This document shows positions 27,704-35,119 of a stretch of DNA of 36,768 bases, in pieces. Both the position numbers and the translations under genes were made by a program. The DNA lies in the NCBI GenBank assembly GCA_944323735.1, contig CALUTO010000018.1, positions 1 through 36,768 of the forward strand, given 5' to 3'. The notes under the pieces were generated by a model, which saw nothing but the letters and a program-made list of their open reading frames with translations, was not told where the DNA came from and ran no database searches. How positions within the stretch are numbered: the first letter of the stretch is position 1; each line of letters begins with the position of its first letter. The DNA comes from Candidatus Gastranaerophilales bacterium. GTDB lineage: Bacteria; Cyanobacteriota; Vampirovibrionia; Gastranaerophilales; Gastranaerophilaceae.

Positions 27704-28312
27704 TTGCAATACAAATTAATACCGCAGACTGAAAACACAAACAAACGTGGCAAAAGCCTGAAAACCTTTCCGGACAGCTTCGTAGTTCTGGATATAGAAA
27801 CAACAGGACTGAATCCATCTGTTAATGAGATTATAGAACTATCTGCATTAAAAATAATAAACAACAGAGTTGTTAAAAAATTCAGCACCCTTGTAAAACC
27901 TGAAGGAAAAATCAGCTCCTATATTACACAGCTGACAGGTATAAGCATGTCAATGACAGATAACGCACCTGATATAAAAACTGCAATAAAAAATTTTTAT
28001 GATTTTTGTTCTGACAGTATTGTGGTCGGGCATAATGTTAAATTTGATATAGGTTTTATAAGTGCAAATTTATACAAACACCACAATATCCATTTTACAA
28101 ATGATTATGTGGACACACTCGGGCTGGCAAGAAAATACCTGCCAATGCTTCCGAATAAAAAACTGGGAACAATTGCCGGCTTCTTTAAATTAAATACGGA
28201 AGGCATGCACAGGGGGCTGAAAGACTGTGCCGTGACATACCTGTGTTTTCAGAAAATGAAGCAGATATCAAAAATGCATCACAACCCTTTTTTAAATAAT
28301 TCAAACAGCTAA
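27704..28312 (+). CDS. DnaQ-like DEDDh 3'-5' exonuclease
   Basis: A 202-residue exonuclease of the proofreading superfamily. Exo I is VVLDIETTGLNP (D30, E32), Exo II VVGHNVKFDIGF (D115), and Exo III HRGLKDCAVT (H169, D174), so all five catalytic residues are present. It resembles the stand-alone DNA polymerase III epsilon-type or PolC-type proofreading exonuclease. The start is TTG, chosen because GAGGAGG lies eight bases upstream, a near-perfect ribosome site. The stop overlaps the convergent tmk stop by 12 bases. A role in proofreading or DNA repair is inferred. Confidence 0.92.
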   Translation: MQYKLIPQTENTNKRGKSLKTFPDSFVVLDIETTGLNPSVNEIIELSALKIINNRVVKKFSTLVKPEGKISSYITQLTGISMSMTDNAPDIKTAIKNFYDFCSDSIVVGHNVKFDIGFISANLYKHHNIHFTNDYVDTLGLARKYLPMLPNKKLGTIAGFFKLNTEGMHRGLKDCAVTYLCFQKMKQISKMHHNPFLNNSNS

Positions 28313-28927
28313 AAAATTCTCCACAGCTTTTTTGGTATCTTCAAAAACCTGCTCTATTGAATTGTTTGCATTTATGATTTTTATGCGGTAGGGATATTCT
28401 TCGGCGAGTCTTAGATATCCGTAGCGGACTTTTTGATGAAATCCGGAGCCTTCTGACTCCATCCTGTCTTTGTCAGCCCCGACTCTTTTCTGTGCAATTT
28501 CTGAGTCCACATCGAACACGAGTGTCAGGTCAGGATAAAACTTTCCGGTTGCAAGGTCGTTCAGGTAATTAATACGTGTAATATCAATCCCTTTTCCATA
28601 TCCCTGGTATGCAACAGTAGAGTCTGTATAACGGTCACATAACACTATCATGCCGCTATCTACTGCGGGCTTTATTACCGTTTCAACGTGCTGTGCTCTG
28701 TCAGCAAGGAACAAAAAAGCTTCGCACTCCGGTGCAACATAGCCGTCATAATGCAAAAGTATCTTTCTTAGCTCTTTTCCGAGTTCTGCACCGCCGGGTT
28801 CTCTTGTCCAGAGCGTTTTTCGTCCCGTATCCTCTAGATATTTCTTAATGAGCTCTGACTGGGTGGTTTTACCGCAGCCATCTGCACCTTCAAATGTAAT
28901 AAAAAAACCTTTTTTCCTGTTTTCCAT
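28301..28927 (-). CDS. tmk: Thymidylate kinase
   Basis: A 208-residue cytoplasmic enzyme that makes dTDP from dTMP and ATP. The P-loop FEGADGCGKTT is at residues 12-22, the DRY motif at VLCDRYTDSTVAYQG, and the LID contains KDRMESEGSGFHQKVR. TREPGG near residue 41 binds dTMP. The start overlaps the serS stop (TAATG), so translation is coupled. Its 3' end overlaps the exonuclease gene on the other strand. Confidence 0.97.
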   Translation of the reverse strand: MENRKKGFFITFEGADGCGKTTQSELIKKYLEDTGRKTLWTREPGGAELGKELRKILLHYDGYVAPECEAFLFLADRAQHVETVIKPAVDSGMIVLCDRYTDSTVAYQGYGKGIDITRINYLNDLATGKFYPDLTLVFDVDSEIAQKRVGADKDRMESEGSGFHQKVRYGYLRLAEEYPYRIKIINANNSIEQVFEDTKKAVENFLAV

Positions 28928-30192
28928 TATAATCTGTCAAATCCTGTATACTGTCTTAAAACTTCAGGTATGATAACAGAGCCGTCCTCCTGCTGGAAGT
29001 TTTCTATTATTGCCGCAAAAGTACGTCCTACCGCCAGACCGGAACCGTTCATTGTGTAACAGTAATTAACCTTTCCGGTTGATTTGCTTCTGTATTTTAA
29101 ACCTGCTCTTCTTGCCTGAAAATCGCCGAATACCGAGCAGCTTGAGATTTCTTTATAATTATTGTAAGAGGGCATCCAGACTTCAAGGTCATAGCATTTT
29201 CTTGCTGAAAATCCTATATCTCCCGTGCACAGTTCAACTCTTCTGAACGGAAGCTCAAGAAGTTCCAGAGCGTGTTCGGCATCTCTTGTCAGTTTTTCAT
29301 GTTCTTCGGGTGCCTGTTCCGGAGTGGTGAGTTTTACCAGCTCAACTTTGTTAAACTGGTGTACACGAATAAGTCCTCTTGTATCTTTACCTGCAGAGCC
29401 TGCTTCTCTTCTGAAGCAGGGAGTGTATGCCGTCATGCAGCGGGGCAGGTCATCTTCTGAAAGTATTTCATTGCAGTAAATATTTGTCACTGGAACTTCC
29501 GCTGTCGGAATAAGATATAAGTCTTCATCCACACATTTATACATGTCTTCTGCGAATTTCGGAAGCTGTCCCGTGCCGGTCATTGCTGCGGAGTTAACAA
29601 GTACAGGAGGAAGAATTTCTTCGTATCCGTGTTCTTTTGTATGCAGGTCTAAGAAGAAGTTAATTATTGCTCTTTCCAGTCTTGCTCCTTTGTTTTTGTA
29701 AATATAAAATCTCGACTGGGAAATTTTTACCCCTCTTTCAAAATCTACTATATTCTTTTCTGTAACGATATCCCAGTGCGGTTTTTGTTCAAAAGCCGGT
29801 TTTGCAGGTTCGCCTACATATTTTTTTACGACATTATCTGCGTCGCTTGTGCCTGTTGCTATGTTTTCATCAGGGATATTCGGGATTGTAAGTAAGAGTT
29901 CTCTTTGTTTTGTGTCAAGTTCTGTTTCTTTTTCTTCGAGGATTTTTATTTTATCACCTATTTCTCTGACTTCTTCCTGAACTTTTGTTGTGTCCTGCCC
30001 CTGTTTTTTAAGTTCTCCTATTTTCTGGGATTCCGACTTTCTCAATGCACGCAGTTCATCAGCTTCTGTCTGGACTTTTCTTCTTTCAACATCTATTTCA
30101 AGAACTTTGTCTATAGAGAGTTCAGGATTTCTTCTTTTTAAAAGTTCATTTATTTTTTCGGGCATTTCTCTTACAAGTTTGATATCCAACAT
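28927..30192 (-). CDS. serS: Seryl-tRNA synthetase
   Basis: A 421-residue class II aminoacyl-tRNA synthetase. The N-terminal long coiled-coil arm (about residues 25-105) grips the tRNA long variable arm. Motif 2 is [22 protein letters not shown] and motif 3 is [19 protein letters not shown] near the C-terminus. Length and order are standard. GAGG lies ten bases before the ATG. First of a serS-tmk pair. Confidence 0.97.
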
Positions 30193-30278: not shown

Positions 30279-30857
30279 ATGAAGCGTATTATTAGATATT
30301 TAACGGTTATAGTCCTTATGTTTTTCTGCTGCGGCATTTGTTTTGCGGAGGCGCAGCTCCGTGGATACAAACCTGTTTCACTTGCGCAGGGCACTTTTCT
30401 TAAAGCTGTCAGCCAGCGTGAAATTTCCACCTCAACCGTGCATGCAGGAGATCTGGAATATTTTATAAGCCCTGTTGATGTTTTTATGGGCGAATCAAAT
30501 ATAATCCCGAAAAACTCTGTCTACGTTGCAAGAATAGAATCTGTTGTCGAGGCGGTAGAAGGAATAAACGCTGCAATGAAAATCAGGGTGTTTAAGGTCG
30601 TTACTCCGAATGAAAAACAGTATACGCTGGATGCTTATCTGTACTGGAACAACACAACAACAGTCGGAGGAGACCTTGCAGAGGTTCAGTATTACACCAC
30701 AATGCCCCACTATCCCGGAACCTGGAAAAAGGGTGTTCTCCAGCTTGTTCCGACAAGCGTGAGATATTTTGGCAAGCCTACTGTTATCAAAGCAGGCGAA
30801 GAGGTTACTTTTGTAATTAACAAAGACATGAAGCTCTTCCCGTACAAGGATAAATAA
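30279..30857 (+). CDS. Secreted protein with VirB10/TrbI-like beta domain
   Basis: A 192-residue protein exported by a signal peptide (residues 1-23, hydrophobic core YLTVIVLMFFCCGICFA). The mature part is beta-rich: QGTFLKAVSQREISTSTV, then IIPKNSVYVARIESVVEAVEG and VTPNEKQYTLDAYL, ending in VIKAGEEVTFVINKDMKLF. The IP-x-x-S-x ... P-x-x-K-x-Y-x-L-D pattern recalls the VirB10/TrbI outer-membrane-cap domain. The gene at 5301-6287 shares this layout, with a long linker added. No SD sequence; the promoter suggests a leaderless message. The next gene starts directly after its stop. Family assignment is by pattern only. Confidence 0.75.
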   Translation: MKRIIRYLTVIVLMFFCCGICFAEAQLRGYKPVSLAQGTFLKAVSQREISTSTVHAGDLEYFISPVDVFMGESNIIPKNSVYVARIESVVEAVEGINAAMKIRVFKVVTPNEKQYTLDAYLYWNNTTTVGGDLAEVQYYTTMPHYPGTWKKGVLQLVPTSVRYFGKPTVIKAGEEVTFVINKDMKLFPYKDK

Positions 30858-32078
30858 ATGAAAAAATTTTTAATAATTTGTTTAATAGTGTTTTTATCAG
30901 CAGGTCTGTTTTTCCTGAAACCGGCAGGAAAAAACAATGAAGTTGTTTTCTGGACGCTTCAGATGGGAGCGTTTAGCGGGTATATGAACGGAGTTATTTC
31001 AGAGTTTGAAACACAGAACCCTGATATAAAAATAAAATGGATTGATGTACCGTATTCGGAAGGAGAAAAAAGAACACTTGCATCTATTTTGAGCAATACA
31101 CCGCCTGACCTTGTTAATCTTACTCCGGATTTTTCAAGCGTACTTGCACAAAAACAGGCTTTGCAATTTTTAGACTGCAATGAGCTGGAGGTTTACAACA
31201 AAGAAATTATAAACAGTTTAAAATATCGGGGTGAATGTTATGCAATACCGTTTTATGCAACCTCGTCCATTACTTTTTATAATAAAGAGCTGTTCAAAAA
31301 AACCGGATTAAAAAAACTGCCGGTGACTTTTGATGATTTGAATGCTAATGCGGCACAAATAAAATCGAAAACAGGTGCTTTTGCAACAATGCCCACTGTA
31401 TGTGAAAATGATACAATGCTGAAAATACTTAATAAATATAATATAAACACACCTGAAAAATTGGCTTCACAAAAGAGTGCCGATATTTTTTCAGAATACA
31501 AAAATCTTTACAGCAAAGACCTGATACCAAAAGAATCAATAACCCAGACGCACAGAGAAGCTCTTGAAAAATATATGTCGGGACAGCTTGTGTTCATTCA
31601 GTCAGGTGCAAATTTTTTGAATATAGTAAAGGAAAATGCTCCGCAGATTTATAAAAATACTGATGTAACATATCAGCTTACCGGAAGCAGCGGAAAATAC
31701 GATGTATCTATTATGAACCTTGTTATTCCGCTAAAAGCACGCCACAAAGAAGAAGCTCTCAAGTTTGCACTGTTTTTGACCAATAAAAATAATCAAACAG
31801 AACTTGCAAAACTTACTACAATTCTGCCAGTAAATAAAGAAGCACTGAAGGATGATTATTTTTTGAAGGCGGATGAAAAAGATACAATAGCAAAGTCCAG
31901 AAAAATAAGTGCTTCCCAGCTTAACAATCTTGAAGAGCAGATTCAATTCAACCGCAACAGAAAAGAGTTTTTGACTATGCTGAACACTTCTGTGCAGCAG
32001 ATTTTGCTCTCAGAAACCGGTGTAAAACAGGCACTTTCGCAGGCGGCAAAAAACTGGGAGCAGCTTGTGCGGGAATGA
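30858..32078 (+). CDS. Extracellular solute-binding protein, family 1
   Basis: A 406-residue protein of the sugar-type (MalE-like) substrate-binding fold. An N-terminal hydrophobic segment (residues 3-20) is followed by VVFWTLQMG and FETQNPDIKIKWIDVPY, then the typical YAIPFYATSSITFYNKELFKKTGL. No lipobox Cys is present, so it is either anchored by an uncleaved helix or freed into the periplasm. No ABC permease or ATPase gene is next to it. The ATG abuts the previous stop, with AAGGA eight bases upstream, and the stop overlaps the next gene (ATGA). Ligand unknown; sugars are usual for the family. Confidence 0.9.
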   Translation: MKKFLIICLIVFLSAGLFFLKPAGKNNEVVFWTLQMGAFSGYMNGVISEFETQNPDIKIKWIDVPYSEGEKRTLASILSNTPPDLVNLTPDFSSVLAQKQALQFLDCNELEVYNKEIINSLKYRGECYAIPFYATSSITFYNKELFKKTGLKKLPVTFDDLNANAAQIKSKTGAFATMPTVCENDTMLKILNKYNINTPEKLASQKSADIFSEYKNLYSKDLIPKESITQTHREALEKYMSGQLVFIQSGANFLNIVKENAPQIYKNTDVTYQLTGSSGKYDVSIMNLVIPLKARHKEEALKFALFLTNKNNQTELAKLTTILPVNKEALKDDYFLKADEKDTIAKSRKISASQLNNLEEQIQFNRNRKEFLTMLNTSVQQILLSETGVKQALSQAAKNWEQLVRE

Positions 32079-32770
32079 AGAACATGAAAATTTTAGAACA
32101 GGTTAAAACTCAATCAGGAAATACTGTTGATTTATTCTGCAAAGATGCAAAAAATAGAAATACACCGGAAGCAACCATACTCATAGCGGGATGTTTCCAC
32201 GGCGACGAGCCGTCCGGAAAATATCTAATTGAAAAGTATCTGGAAAAAGATATTGAACCGGATAACAGACTCCTGTTTATCCCCTGTCTTAATCCCGACG
32301 GACTCATTGCGGGCACAAGAGGAAATGCAGCGGGAGTAGACCTGAACAGAAATTTTCCCGCAAAGAACTGGGAGGCTTCGGCAAAAGACAAATATTACGG
32401 AGGAAAAGCACCCGCAAGCGAAGCAGAGACAAAATTTATGGTGGCCGTCATTGAAAAATATTGTCCTGACTTGATATTGACCCTGCATGAACCATACTGT
32501 ATAGTAAATTATGACGGGCCTGCATTCGATGCTGCAAAAAAAATCAGTGAAATTACCGGCTACAGGCTTGAGCAGAGTATAGGCTATCCGACACCGGGAA
32601 GTTTTGGAACATACTGCGGAATAGAACGAAACATCCCCGTTATTACACTGGAGCTGCCGCCGACAACAGAAAGCGAAGACGCTCAAACACCTGTAGTTTC
32701 AGCAGAGAGTCTGTATGAACCTTTTGAGAAAATTATGGATTTTTTAAATTTTTATAACATAAAAAATTAA
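32075..32770 (+). CDS. M14-family zinc carboxypeptidase, MpaA-like
   Basis: A 231-residue zinc peptidase of the M14 fold. Zinc ligands are H42 and E45 (GCFHGDEPSG) and H138 (LTLHEP). R82 (TRGNAAG) and N91-R92 (DLNRNFP) bind the substrate carboxylate, and the catalytic Glu is E193 (ITLELP). The short length and these motifs fit the murein-peptide amidase MpaA, which cuts the gamma-D-Glu to diaminopimelate bond of murein tripeptide, and also fit related desuccinylases. No signal peptide, so cytoplasmic. The ATG overlaps the stop of the binding-protein gene, so the two are co-translated. A second Met three codons later is possible. Confidence 0.88.
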   Translation: MKNMKILEQVKTQSGNTVDLFCKDAKNRNTPEATILIAGCFHGDEPSGKYLIEKYLEKDIEPDNRLLFIPCLNPDGLIAGTRGNAAGVDLNRNFPAKNWEASAKDKYYGGKAPASEAETKFMVAVIEKYCPDLILTLHEPYCIVNYDGPAFDAAKKISEITGYRLEQSIGYPTPGSFGTYCGIERNIPVITLELPPTTESEDAQTPVVSAESLYEPFEKIMDFLNFYNIKN

Positions 32771-32953: not shown

Positions 32954-35119
32954 ATGCTAAAAGAACAACTGGACAAAATTATGCGTCCGAAAGCTATTGC
33001 AGTAATCGGCGCATCAACAAAGGAACACACTATAGGTTCCGACATCATGAAAAGACTTAAAGAATACGAGTTTACCGGTAAAATTTATCCTGTAAACCCT
33101 AAAGGCGGAGAAATTCAAGGTTTCAAAGCTTATACAAACGTAAAAGAAATCCCCGGTGACGTTGATTTGGCAATAATTGTTATTGCACAAAAATTCGTTT
33201 TGAATGCAATTGATGAGTGCCATGAAAAATGTATCAAAGGTATATGTATCATATCTGCAGGCTTTAAAGAAGCAGGTGCGGAAGGTGCCGAGGCTGAAAA
33301 ACAGCTCGTTGCAAAATTAAAAGAATACGGTATGAGATGCGTAGGCCCTAACTGCTTAGGCGTTGTAAACACAGCTCCCGACATCAGAATGGACGGATGT
33401 TTTGCAGAATCTTTGCCTGAAAGAGGAAACATAGGTTTTGTTTCACAGTCAGGTGCATTAGGCGGCGGTATTTTAAATATATTAAAAGACCTGAATCTCG
33501 GTTTTGCACAGTTTATCTCAATAGGAAATCAGGCTGACATAAACGCTGAAACAGCAATGGAATACTGGGAAAATGAAGATGATGTAGAACAAATTCTTCT
33601 TTATATGGAATCTATTCAGAATCCTGCTAATTTCAGAAAACTGGCTTCCAGAATCACAAAGAAAAAACCTATCTTAGCTCTGAAAGCCGGACGTTCAGCA
33701 GCAGGTGCTTCTGCAGCATCATCTCACACAGGTTCTCTTGCAGGTGCAGATAAAGCTGCAAACGCACTTCTTATGCAATCAGGCGTAATCAGAGAATACT
33801 CTTTGAAAAACCTTTTTGCAACAGCTAAAGTTTTTGCTACATCTCCTATCCCGAAAGGCGACAGAGTAGCTATCATCACAAACTCCGGCGGCCCGGGAAT
33901 CATGGCAACAGACGCTGTTTGTGAATACGGAATGCAGATGGCAAAAATTTCCGATGCAACAAAAGAAAAATTAAGAAGCTTCCTGCCTGCTGCAGCAAGT
34001 GTTAAAAACCCGATTGACATGATTGCATCAGCTCCTATCGAACACTACAAGCAGACACTTGAAACCGTTATTGCTGATGAAAATGTTGATATGATAGCGG
34101 TAATCTATCTGCCGTTCCTCGGTTTGAAAGATATTGATGTTGCTAAAGCTTTGATGGAAATTAAAGCTAAAAATCCTGAAAAACCGATTATCGGTATTTT
34201 CATGACGAAAAATGAGTTCTTCACACAGCTTTCAAATATGGATGTCAACATGCCGTTCTTTATGTACGCAGAAGAAGCTGCAGATGGATTCAACAGACTC
34301 AACCAGCAGAGAAAATGGATGGAAAGACCGGAAGGCAAAATTCCTGTCTACGATGTGGATAAAGCAAAAGCTGAAAAGATTATTAAAGGTGCGGTGGCTG
34401 ACGGACGTGCACAGCTTACTACATTAGAGTCTATTGACGTACTGGACGCTTACGGTATCAGAGCTTGCAAATACGGTCTTGCAACTAATGAAGAAGAAGT
34501 TGTTGAACTCGGCAATTCAATCGGATATCCGGTTGTTATGAAAATGACTTCAAAAACAACTTCTCACAAAACCGATGTCGGCGGTGTAAGAGTAAATATT
34601 CAGTCAGAAGAACAGTTAAGAGCAGAATACAAAGACCTTATCCAAAAACTCACTGAAAAAGGACTTATAGACGGACTTGAAGGTGTTATCATTCAGGAAA
34701 TGGTTAAAGGCAACCGTGAAATGGTCTGCGGTATTGCAACAGATCCTCAGTACGGTCCGATGATGATGTTTGGCTTAGGCGGTGTATTCATTGAAACAAT
34801 GAAAGATGTAACCTTCAGAATTGCTCCGTTGACTGACGTTGACGCTGATGAAATGATTAAATCAGTTAAGGCATACGAACTTTTGAAAGGTGCCAGAGGT
34901 ACAAAACCGGCTAACATGGAACAGATTCAGGAAACTCTTCTGAGACTGTCACAGCTGGTTAATGATTTCAAATTCATTGATGAACTCGATATCAACCCGC
35001 TGCTCATCTCTGAAAAAACCGGTGAAGGCATTGCTGTAGACGGACGTATCAAAGTTCGTGTCGAAGAAGTGAAAGAATACTTCGGATGCGGTGCCGAATG
35101 CAGCCTTTGCAGCAAGTAA
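32954..35119 (+). CDS. Acetate-CoA ligase (ADP-forming), fused alpha and beta subunits
   Basis: A 721-residue enzyme that converts acetyl-CoA, ADP and phosphate to acetate, CoA and ATP. The N-terminal CoA-binding Rossmann domain has IAVIGASTKEHTIG (residues 15-28) and NPKGGEIQG. The ligase domain has FVSQSGALG and the phosphorylated His H258 in SSHTGSLAG. The C-terminal ATP-grasp domain (about 480-705) has YPVVMKMTSKTTSHKTDVGG with the second His H538 and DELDINPLL. Alpha and beta are fused, as in many anaerobes. The C-terminus GCGAECSLCSK adds C712, C716 and C719, not typical of the family. AAAGGTG lies six bases before the ATG. With PFOR it forms an ATP-yielding acetate route. Confidence 0.95.
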   Translation: MLKEQLDKIMRPKAIAVIGASTKEHTIGSDIMKRLKEYEFTGKIYPVNPKGGEIQGFKAYTNVKEIPGDVDLAIIVIAQKFVLNAIDECHEKCIKGICIISAGFKEAGAEGAEAEKQLVAKLKEYGMRCVGPNCLGVVNTAPDIRMDGCFAESLPERGNIGFVSQSGALGGGILNILKDLNLGFAQFISIGNQADINAETAMEYWENEDDVEQILLYMESIQNPANFRKLASRITKKKPILALKAGRSAAGASAASSHTGSLAGADKAANALLMQSGVIREYSLKNLFATAKVFATSPIPKGDRVAIITNSGGPGIMATDAVCEYGMQMAKISDATKEKLRSFLPAAASVKNPIDMIASAPIEHYKQTLETVIADENVDMIAVIYLPFLGLKDIDVAKALMEIKAKNPEKPIIGIFMTKNEFFTQLSNMDVNMPFFMYAEEAADGFNRLNQQRKWMERPEGKIPVYDVDKAKAEKIIKGAVADGRAQLTTLESIDVLDAYGIRACKYGLATNEEEVVELGNSIGYPVVMKMTSKTTSHKTDVGGVRVNIQSEEQLRAEYKDLIQKLTEKGLIDGLEGVIIQEMVKGNREMVCGIATDPQYGPMMMFGLGGVFIETMKDVTFRIAPLTDVDADEMIKSVKAYELLKGARGTKPANMEQIQETLLRLSQLVNDFKFIDELDINPLLISEKTGEGIAVDGRIKVRVEEVKEYFGCGAECSLCSK

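Follow-up and report, generated by a model that had tools for sequence, protein, structure and literature searches.

Three tightly spaced genes in a Gastranaerophilales genome, TrbI1, SBP1 and an MpaA-like amidase gene (MpaA), encode three known kinds of protein and have been recently joined. They probably form no functional system, and would instead be a genus-specific run of three core genes, the products of which act in three different processes. Each gene is near-universal in related genomes, the three are separated in most of them, and genomes with intermediate arrangements exist.

The locus and the genomes compared

Gastranaerophilales are a non-photosynthetic sister group of cyanobacteria. 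According to PMC4040986, the cell wall of Melainabacteria is of the diderm type, and genes for lipid A are present. The window, meaning the whole stretch of 36,768 nucleotides that was analysed, corresponds to contig C18; the genome totals 2.06 Mb in 56 contigs and is 99.7% complete. It was compared with 59 related genomes sampled from 49 genera, with G000-G003 representing the window's own genus, and with a named collection, in which the relatives of the window's genes are mostly Candidatus Gastranaerophilales MAGs. Counts of SBP1 neighbourhoods refer to the best 80 of 345 named loci, and those of TrbI1 neighbourhoods to 20 fetched loci hand-chosen from 57; contig breaks in MAGs may conceal adjacency in all such gene-order counts. 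The alignments of TrbI1 (A1), SBP1 (A2) and MpaA (A3) used the best 30 relatives per search, with L012 and L026 left out of A1, L036, L050, L053, L054 and L059 out of A2, and L090 out of A3. Predicted structures were modelled without ligand or complex.

All three genes lie on the plus strand. TrbI1 (30279-30857, an ORF of 192 aa) encodes a secreted protein with the predicted fold of the VirB10 C-terminal domain and no outer-membrane helix hairpin; the product of SBP1 (30858-32078, 406 aa) is a solute-binding protein of the cluster-D sugar type, which lacks a lipobox and has a hydrophobic anchor at its N-terminus; and that of MpaA (32075-32770, 231 aa) is an M14 amidase that lacks a signal peptide and retains every catalytic position. 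The original prediction of a trio lacking any spacer was confirmed in the ORFs: the TAA of TrbI1 (30855-30857) is followed by the ATG of SBP1 at 30858 with zero bases between, and the SBP1 stop codon overlaps the amidase start (ATGA), with an alternative start codon, also ATG, three codons further on at 32084. All four genomes of the genus share the zero-base junction of TrbI1 and SBP1, which is therefore no accident of assembly.

Upstream, and divergent from TrbI1, are the genes for thymidylate kinase and seryl-tRNA synthetase (tmk and serS, 28301-30192, minus strand). Downstream is an ADP-forming acyl-CoA synthetase-like gene (32954-35119, plus strand), which stands where the genus's three other genomes have a gene for a secreted GH13 amylase in convergent orientation. 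Promoter and terminator signals were rejected as proof of an operon, with 11 promoter-like signals against 7.3 expected, and three terminator-like signals against 2.4. A phage origin for the trio was likewise discarded, the sole PHROGs match being to an unspecific carboxypeptidase.

Gene order across relatives

TrbI1 was present in 57 of the 59 genomes, SBP1 in 54 when weak matches are disregarded, and MpaA in 55. The complete trio was found in four of the 59, all in the window's genus (G000-G003), and the adjacency of SBP1 and MpaA in six, namely these four together with G008 and G022. Otherwise the genes were on separate contigs or, where two shared one, 18 kb or more apart, from 18 kb in G013, 22 kb in G025, 34 kb in G009 and 41 kb in G016 to the widest gaps of 253 kb in G046 and 554 kb in G035. 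The absence of spacers had been read as pointing to one function, but in the relatives the genes separate freely, the outcome named beforehand as refuting that reading, and each has other, unrelated regular neighbours. The same separation in most of the 59 genomes removes murein-peptide or muropeptide scavenging as a role common to all three.

The named loci give a similar picture. TrbI1 was directly upstream of SBP1 in two of the 80 best, both from the window's genus, and MpaA was directly downstream of SBP1 in 26. In 25 of these 26 the spacing was between -8 and +3 bases, with 22 overlapping and SBP1 identity extending down to 62%, although the start codon nearest the stop was taken, which favours short gaps. 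RarA was divergent from SBP1, within 3 kb, in 38 of the best 80 loci. The SBP1 gene is also divergent from RarA/MgsA in L095 and L104, an arrangement seen in many genera. Among the 20 fetched loci, the usual upstream genes of MpaA were those for FtsY (eight loci, with NusB nearby), TIM (two) and UPF0047 (two).

Two genomes, G008 and G022, are intermediates, in which TrbI1 lies beside serS-tmk and SBP1-MpaA-GH13 is found elsewhere. The order in the window's genus is serS-tmk, then TrbI1-SBP1-MpaA, then GH13 in three genomes or the acyl-CoA synthetase-like gene in the window. From these arrangements we infer the following order of joining events. Firstly, the genes for the solute-binding protein and the amidase would have become neighbours in one clade. 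Secondly, TrbI1 would have left a TonB operon and landed beside serS-tmk. Thirdly, the window's genus would have joined both segments to give TrbI1-SBP1-MpaA.

As these are core genes, usually apart, that have been joined in one genus, their close packing is probably, for the most part, a chance outcome of gene order. The SBP1-MpaA adjacency and the zero-base junction in four of four genomes count against accident, and the pair has been retained for long if it is meaningless. The one support for a shared role comes from SBP1 and MpaA, which have remained neighbours in 26 of the top 80 named loci, and selection for co-expression of the two is possible, judging from gene order.

TrbI1 and its usual TonB-ExbB-ExbD operon

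The first protein had been described as VirB10-like, and the predicted fold bears this out. By sequence, TrbI1 scored 16.5 bits against the Pfam TrbI family, under the cut-off of 35, and nine of 28 orthologues matched TrbI at an E value of 0.01 or better. The model built from these 28 orthologues (mean pLDDT 88.8) had a VirB10-type match in Foldseek (E 2.6e-5), and aligned to Xanthomonas citri VirB10 (6gyb_C) with a Z score of 14.0 over 124 residues at 3.1 A. It was followed by chains of TrwE, CagY, the Dot/Icm dome and ComB10, with the next unrelated match at Z 3.8; no other clear fold was found in the Foldseek and VIA lists. An assignment as an Omp33-36 porin was rejected at 18 bits against a cut-off of 400.

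VirB10/TrbI proteins have an N-terminal cytoplasmic segment, a membrane helix and a proline-rich stretch preceding the domain, from which VirB10 extends a two-helix outer-membrane antenna, or hairpin. TrbI1 shares the beta-rich C-terminal domain fold of TrwE, X. citri VirB10, CagY and ComB10, but has none of the N-terminal cytoplasmic, transmembrane and proline-rich parts: a short hydrophobic helix at residues 2-20 is all that comes before the domain. Helices past residue 20 are absent from the model, and the VirB10 outer-membrane hairpin therefore appears to be missing. The context differs too: TrbI1 orthologues sit with TonB-ExbBD, and no type IV secretion genes were found beside TrbI1 among the neighbours scanned with Pfam.

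In 16 of the 20 fetched loci, TrbI1 heads an operon of TrbI1-TrbI2-TonB-ExbB-ExbD, and in 14 of these 16 two ExbD genes were called. All 20 of these TrbI1 proteins hit the window protein best among the three TrbI-like proteins of its own genome, indicating orthology. That genome retains TrbI2-TonB-ExbB-ExbD-ExbD on contig C4 (L166:4717-8440), with TrbI1 gone. The TrbI2 model (mean pLDDT 72.1) contains the strands of TrbI1 and, within a Gly-zipper stretch, two further helices at 144-169 and 177-198; it matched TrwE with a Z score of 12.2 over 169 residues at 5.2 A, and VirB10 with a Z score of 13.2. These helices have a pLDDT of about 50, and hence the placement of the hairpin is tentative.

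Further TrbI-like secreted proteins occur away from the TonB operon. These include the third such gene of the window's genome, on contig C1 (L152:8202-8987), for which Pfam gave nothing at E 1e-5, as well as L118:11160-12266 and L112; one type adjoins the genes for EF-P and biotin carboxylase.

The usual operon of TrbI1 shares TonB, ExbB and ExbD, the last mostly in two copies, with ordinary TonB energy transduction systems. Unlike them, it includes two VirB10-like proteins, and no Plug-domain receptor was detected in the window's genome. The search for the Plug domain (PF07715) found none in G000-G003, with positive controls from E. coli, Caulobacter and Bacteroides; the domain was detected in 11 of the 59 genomes and not in the other 48. 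TonB-ExbBD operons were thus present in 16 of 20 fetched loci, against a Plug-domain receptor in just 11 of 59 genomes.

In the role most likely for TrbI1, it would be a periplasmic ring or plug subunit, acting with the hairpin-bearing TrbI2 and the TonB-ExbB-ExbD motor encoded on C4. A bolder proposal, which we put forward tentatively and regard as somewhat unlikely, is that TrbI1 is a subunit of an undescribed TonB-powered outer-membrane machine, in which TrbI2 would form a ring, TrbI1 would be its hairpin-less periplasmic partner, and TonB-ExbB-ExbD-ExbD would open or drive the assembly, replacing TonB-dependent receptors, apparently missing from most of these genomes. No description of a TonB/VirB10-like operon was found in the open-licence papers searched.

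SBP1, an orphan sugar-type binding protein

SBP1 scored 100.6 and 99.1 bits against SBP_bac_8 and SBP_bac_1, with cut-offs of 27 and 26 respectively. It had been predicted to lack both a lipobox and a nearby permease, and both features hold at the locus: SBP1 of the window has no lipobox, with two of 26 aligned orthologues carrying one, and no MalF/MalG-like permease lies beside SBP1 in the loci read. The nearest solved relative is 6WPM (E 7e-50, with the next at 9e-22). PMC8938411 identifies 6WPM and 6WPN as MsBP, an orphan solute-binding protein of Synechococcus MITS9220 whose gene adjoins mreBCD, and reports that it binds zinc and, when zinc is present, fructose-1,6-bisphosphate.

The numbering of the MsBP paper was transferred to SBP1 with an offset of 19 residues, which was taken from the alignment and fits all seven residues. 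The MsBP site residues D173 and R228 are each kept in 25 of 26 aligned sequences and F248 in all 26; the Q227 position holds H in 23 and Q in three; S174 is replaced by T in 24 of 26; and W49 becomes F/Y and R125 A/S in the aligned orthologues. The alignment therefore places SBP1 and MsBP in a common family, with sites that appear alike but not identical. The two resemble each other as best solved match, in being encoded by orphan genes, and in the D173, R228 and F248 retained across the SBP1 family; they differ in that SBP1 adjoins RarA or MpaA rather than mreBCD, and in the replacement of R125 and W49.

The window's genome contains MalF-, MalG- and MalK-type parts of a MalEFGK-type importer: MalF1 and MalG1 are paired on C14, MalF2 and another single permease are on C47 and C7 respectively, and the one MalK-type ATPase is on C3. 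Unlike a MalEFGK operon, these genes are scattered over at least four contigs, and neither MalF1-MalG1, MalF2, MalG2 nor MalK is linked to a binding protein. A binding protein that travels with a permease elsewhere had been named as evidence against the shared role, and this holds by half: the genome encodes one MalK and two MalF/MalG-type sets, all of them unlinked. A Dpp-type permease pair, its family named by eye, is on C8.

A second orphan sugar-type binding protein, SBP2 (L151:7300-8541), is encoded on C17, and MalF2 is at L165:5847-6704 of C47. In the 37 genomes at least 95% complete, with the window's own included and G058 left out, both genes were present in 32, SBP2 alone in none, MalF2 alone in one and neither in four (G005, G011, G024 and G029), a co-loss with a Fisher p of 7.6e-5 when shared ancestry is ignored. 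Against the pattern, G028 has MalF2 and no SBP2, and G054 has SBP2 and no MalF2. SBP1 and MalF1 gave no co-loss signal (p = 1). As SBP2 would pair with MalF2, SBP1 is left with MalF1 by elimination.

Among the 80 best named loci, a GH13 gene is found no more than four genes from SBP1 in 19 of the 26 that have the SBP1-MpaA pair, and in eight of the 54 unpaired ones. With the window and G002 added (82 loci), GH13 was near or not near in 20 and six paired loci, and in eight and 48 unpaired ones; L188 is missing from the neighbourhood listing, yet has the SBP1-MpaA pair. The GH13 enzyme is secreted, scores 31.1 bits against the Pfam alpha-amylase family and has the alpha-amylase 3DHU as its best solved relative (E 1.2e-17). 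This amylase-like gene, at L169:9885-11426 and equivalents, is found near SBP1 in two arrangements, and does not adjoin it in the window. SBP1 would most likely hand an oligosaccharide, possibly phosphorylated or derived from alpha-glucan, to MalF1/MalG1 (C14) and MalK (C3).

The MpaA-like amidase

The amidase scored 51.1 bits against Peptidase_M14 (cut-off 21.6) and 117 bits against MpaA PRK10602, under the curated NCBIfam equivalog cut-off of 157. Its nearest solved relative is E. coli MpaA (5HXD). All 29 aligned sequences have H42, E45, R82, N91, R92, H138 and E193 without variation, and these are presumably the M14 zinc ligands and the catalytic Arg, Asn-Arg and Glu. The claim that all MpaA residues are present is upheld by alignment to 5HXD and 4AXV, which predicts an intact active site; the TPGSFG and DLNR-FP motifs are common to both structures and the amidase. 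It departs from the MpaA family standard in its score under the cut-off, and in an operon context of housekeeping genes.

No export signal is visible in the amidase, and TrbI1 and SBP1 have hydrophobic N-termini, hence the proteins would be in different compartments. The substrate of MpaA is the free tripeptide, according to PMC11980594. In its most likely role, the M14 enzyme would act in the cytoplasm and cut murein tripeptide (L-Ala-gamma-D-Glu-meso-Dap) at the gamma-D-Glu-diaminopimelate bond. The genome also has genes for a peptidase of the LdcA type and a binding protein of the OppA type, and ordinary murein-peptide recycling is therefore plausible without SBP1.

Other readings of the three genes

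SBP1 and MpaA could alternatively form a module for scavenging wall fragments, in which SBP1 would bind a sugar-containing muropeptide, a MalFGK-type importer would transport it and MpaA would trim the peptide, with TrbI1 a late passenger. This is improbable, though it retains some weight through the adjacency, overlapping or nearly so, of the two genes in 26 of the top 80 named loci, the zinc-site-like positions of SBP1 and its common family with MsBP, which binds a modified sugar, and the LdcA-type peptidase and OppA-type binding protein in the genome. However, outside the clade with the pair the two genes are never adjacent in the sampled genomes, though both are near-universal, and in four named loci (L218, L239, L245 and L247) MpaA lies within 8 kb of SBP1 on the opposite strand without being adjacent. 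The free tripeptide that PMC11980594 gives as the MpaA substrate does not call for a binding protein of the sugar type, the genome has OppA and a pair of DppBC-like permeases, both unlinked, and the GH13 amylase is a more telling neighbour of SBP1.

It is very unlikely that SBP1 is a stand-alone sensor or buffer for zinc or another ligand, outside any importer. No locus examined had SBP1 beside a MalF/MalG-like permease, and MsBP is likewise a zinc-binding Synechococcus orphan in PMC8938411, but the genome has two MalF/MalG sets and one MalK, and the loss of SBP2 along with one MalF fits dispersed importers. There is equally little to recommend the trio as a single envelope-remodelling machine of the genus, kept together by translational coupling, as the zero-base and overlapping junctions of all four genomes would suggest, given that it is limited to one genus of 49 sampled, that the nearest genera have the genes apart, and that MpaA, which has no export signal, would act in another compartment than TrbI1 and SBP1, which have N-terminal hydrophobic segments.

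Implications

Our preferred reading of the trio, as core genes of separate processes that were joined in one genus, carries a caution: genes that abut to the base in a single genome are weak grounds for assuming a shared function, and comparing relatives settles the question. SBP1 provides a non-photosynthetic relative in which the true ligand of the MsBP family can be tested. The part worth following up is the TonB/VirB10-like operon. Were a VirB10-type fold coupled to a TonB-ExbBD motor in these diderms, which mostly lack detectable TonB-dependent receptors, TonB would gain a partner besides its usual receptor, and the finding would bear on the origin of type IV secretion cores.
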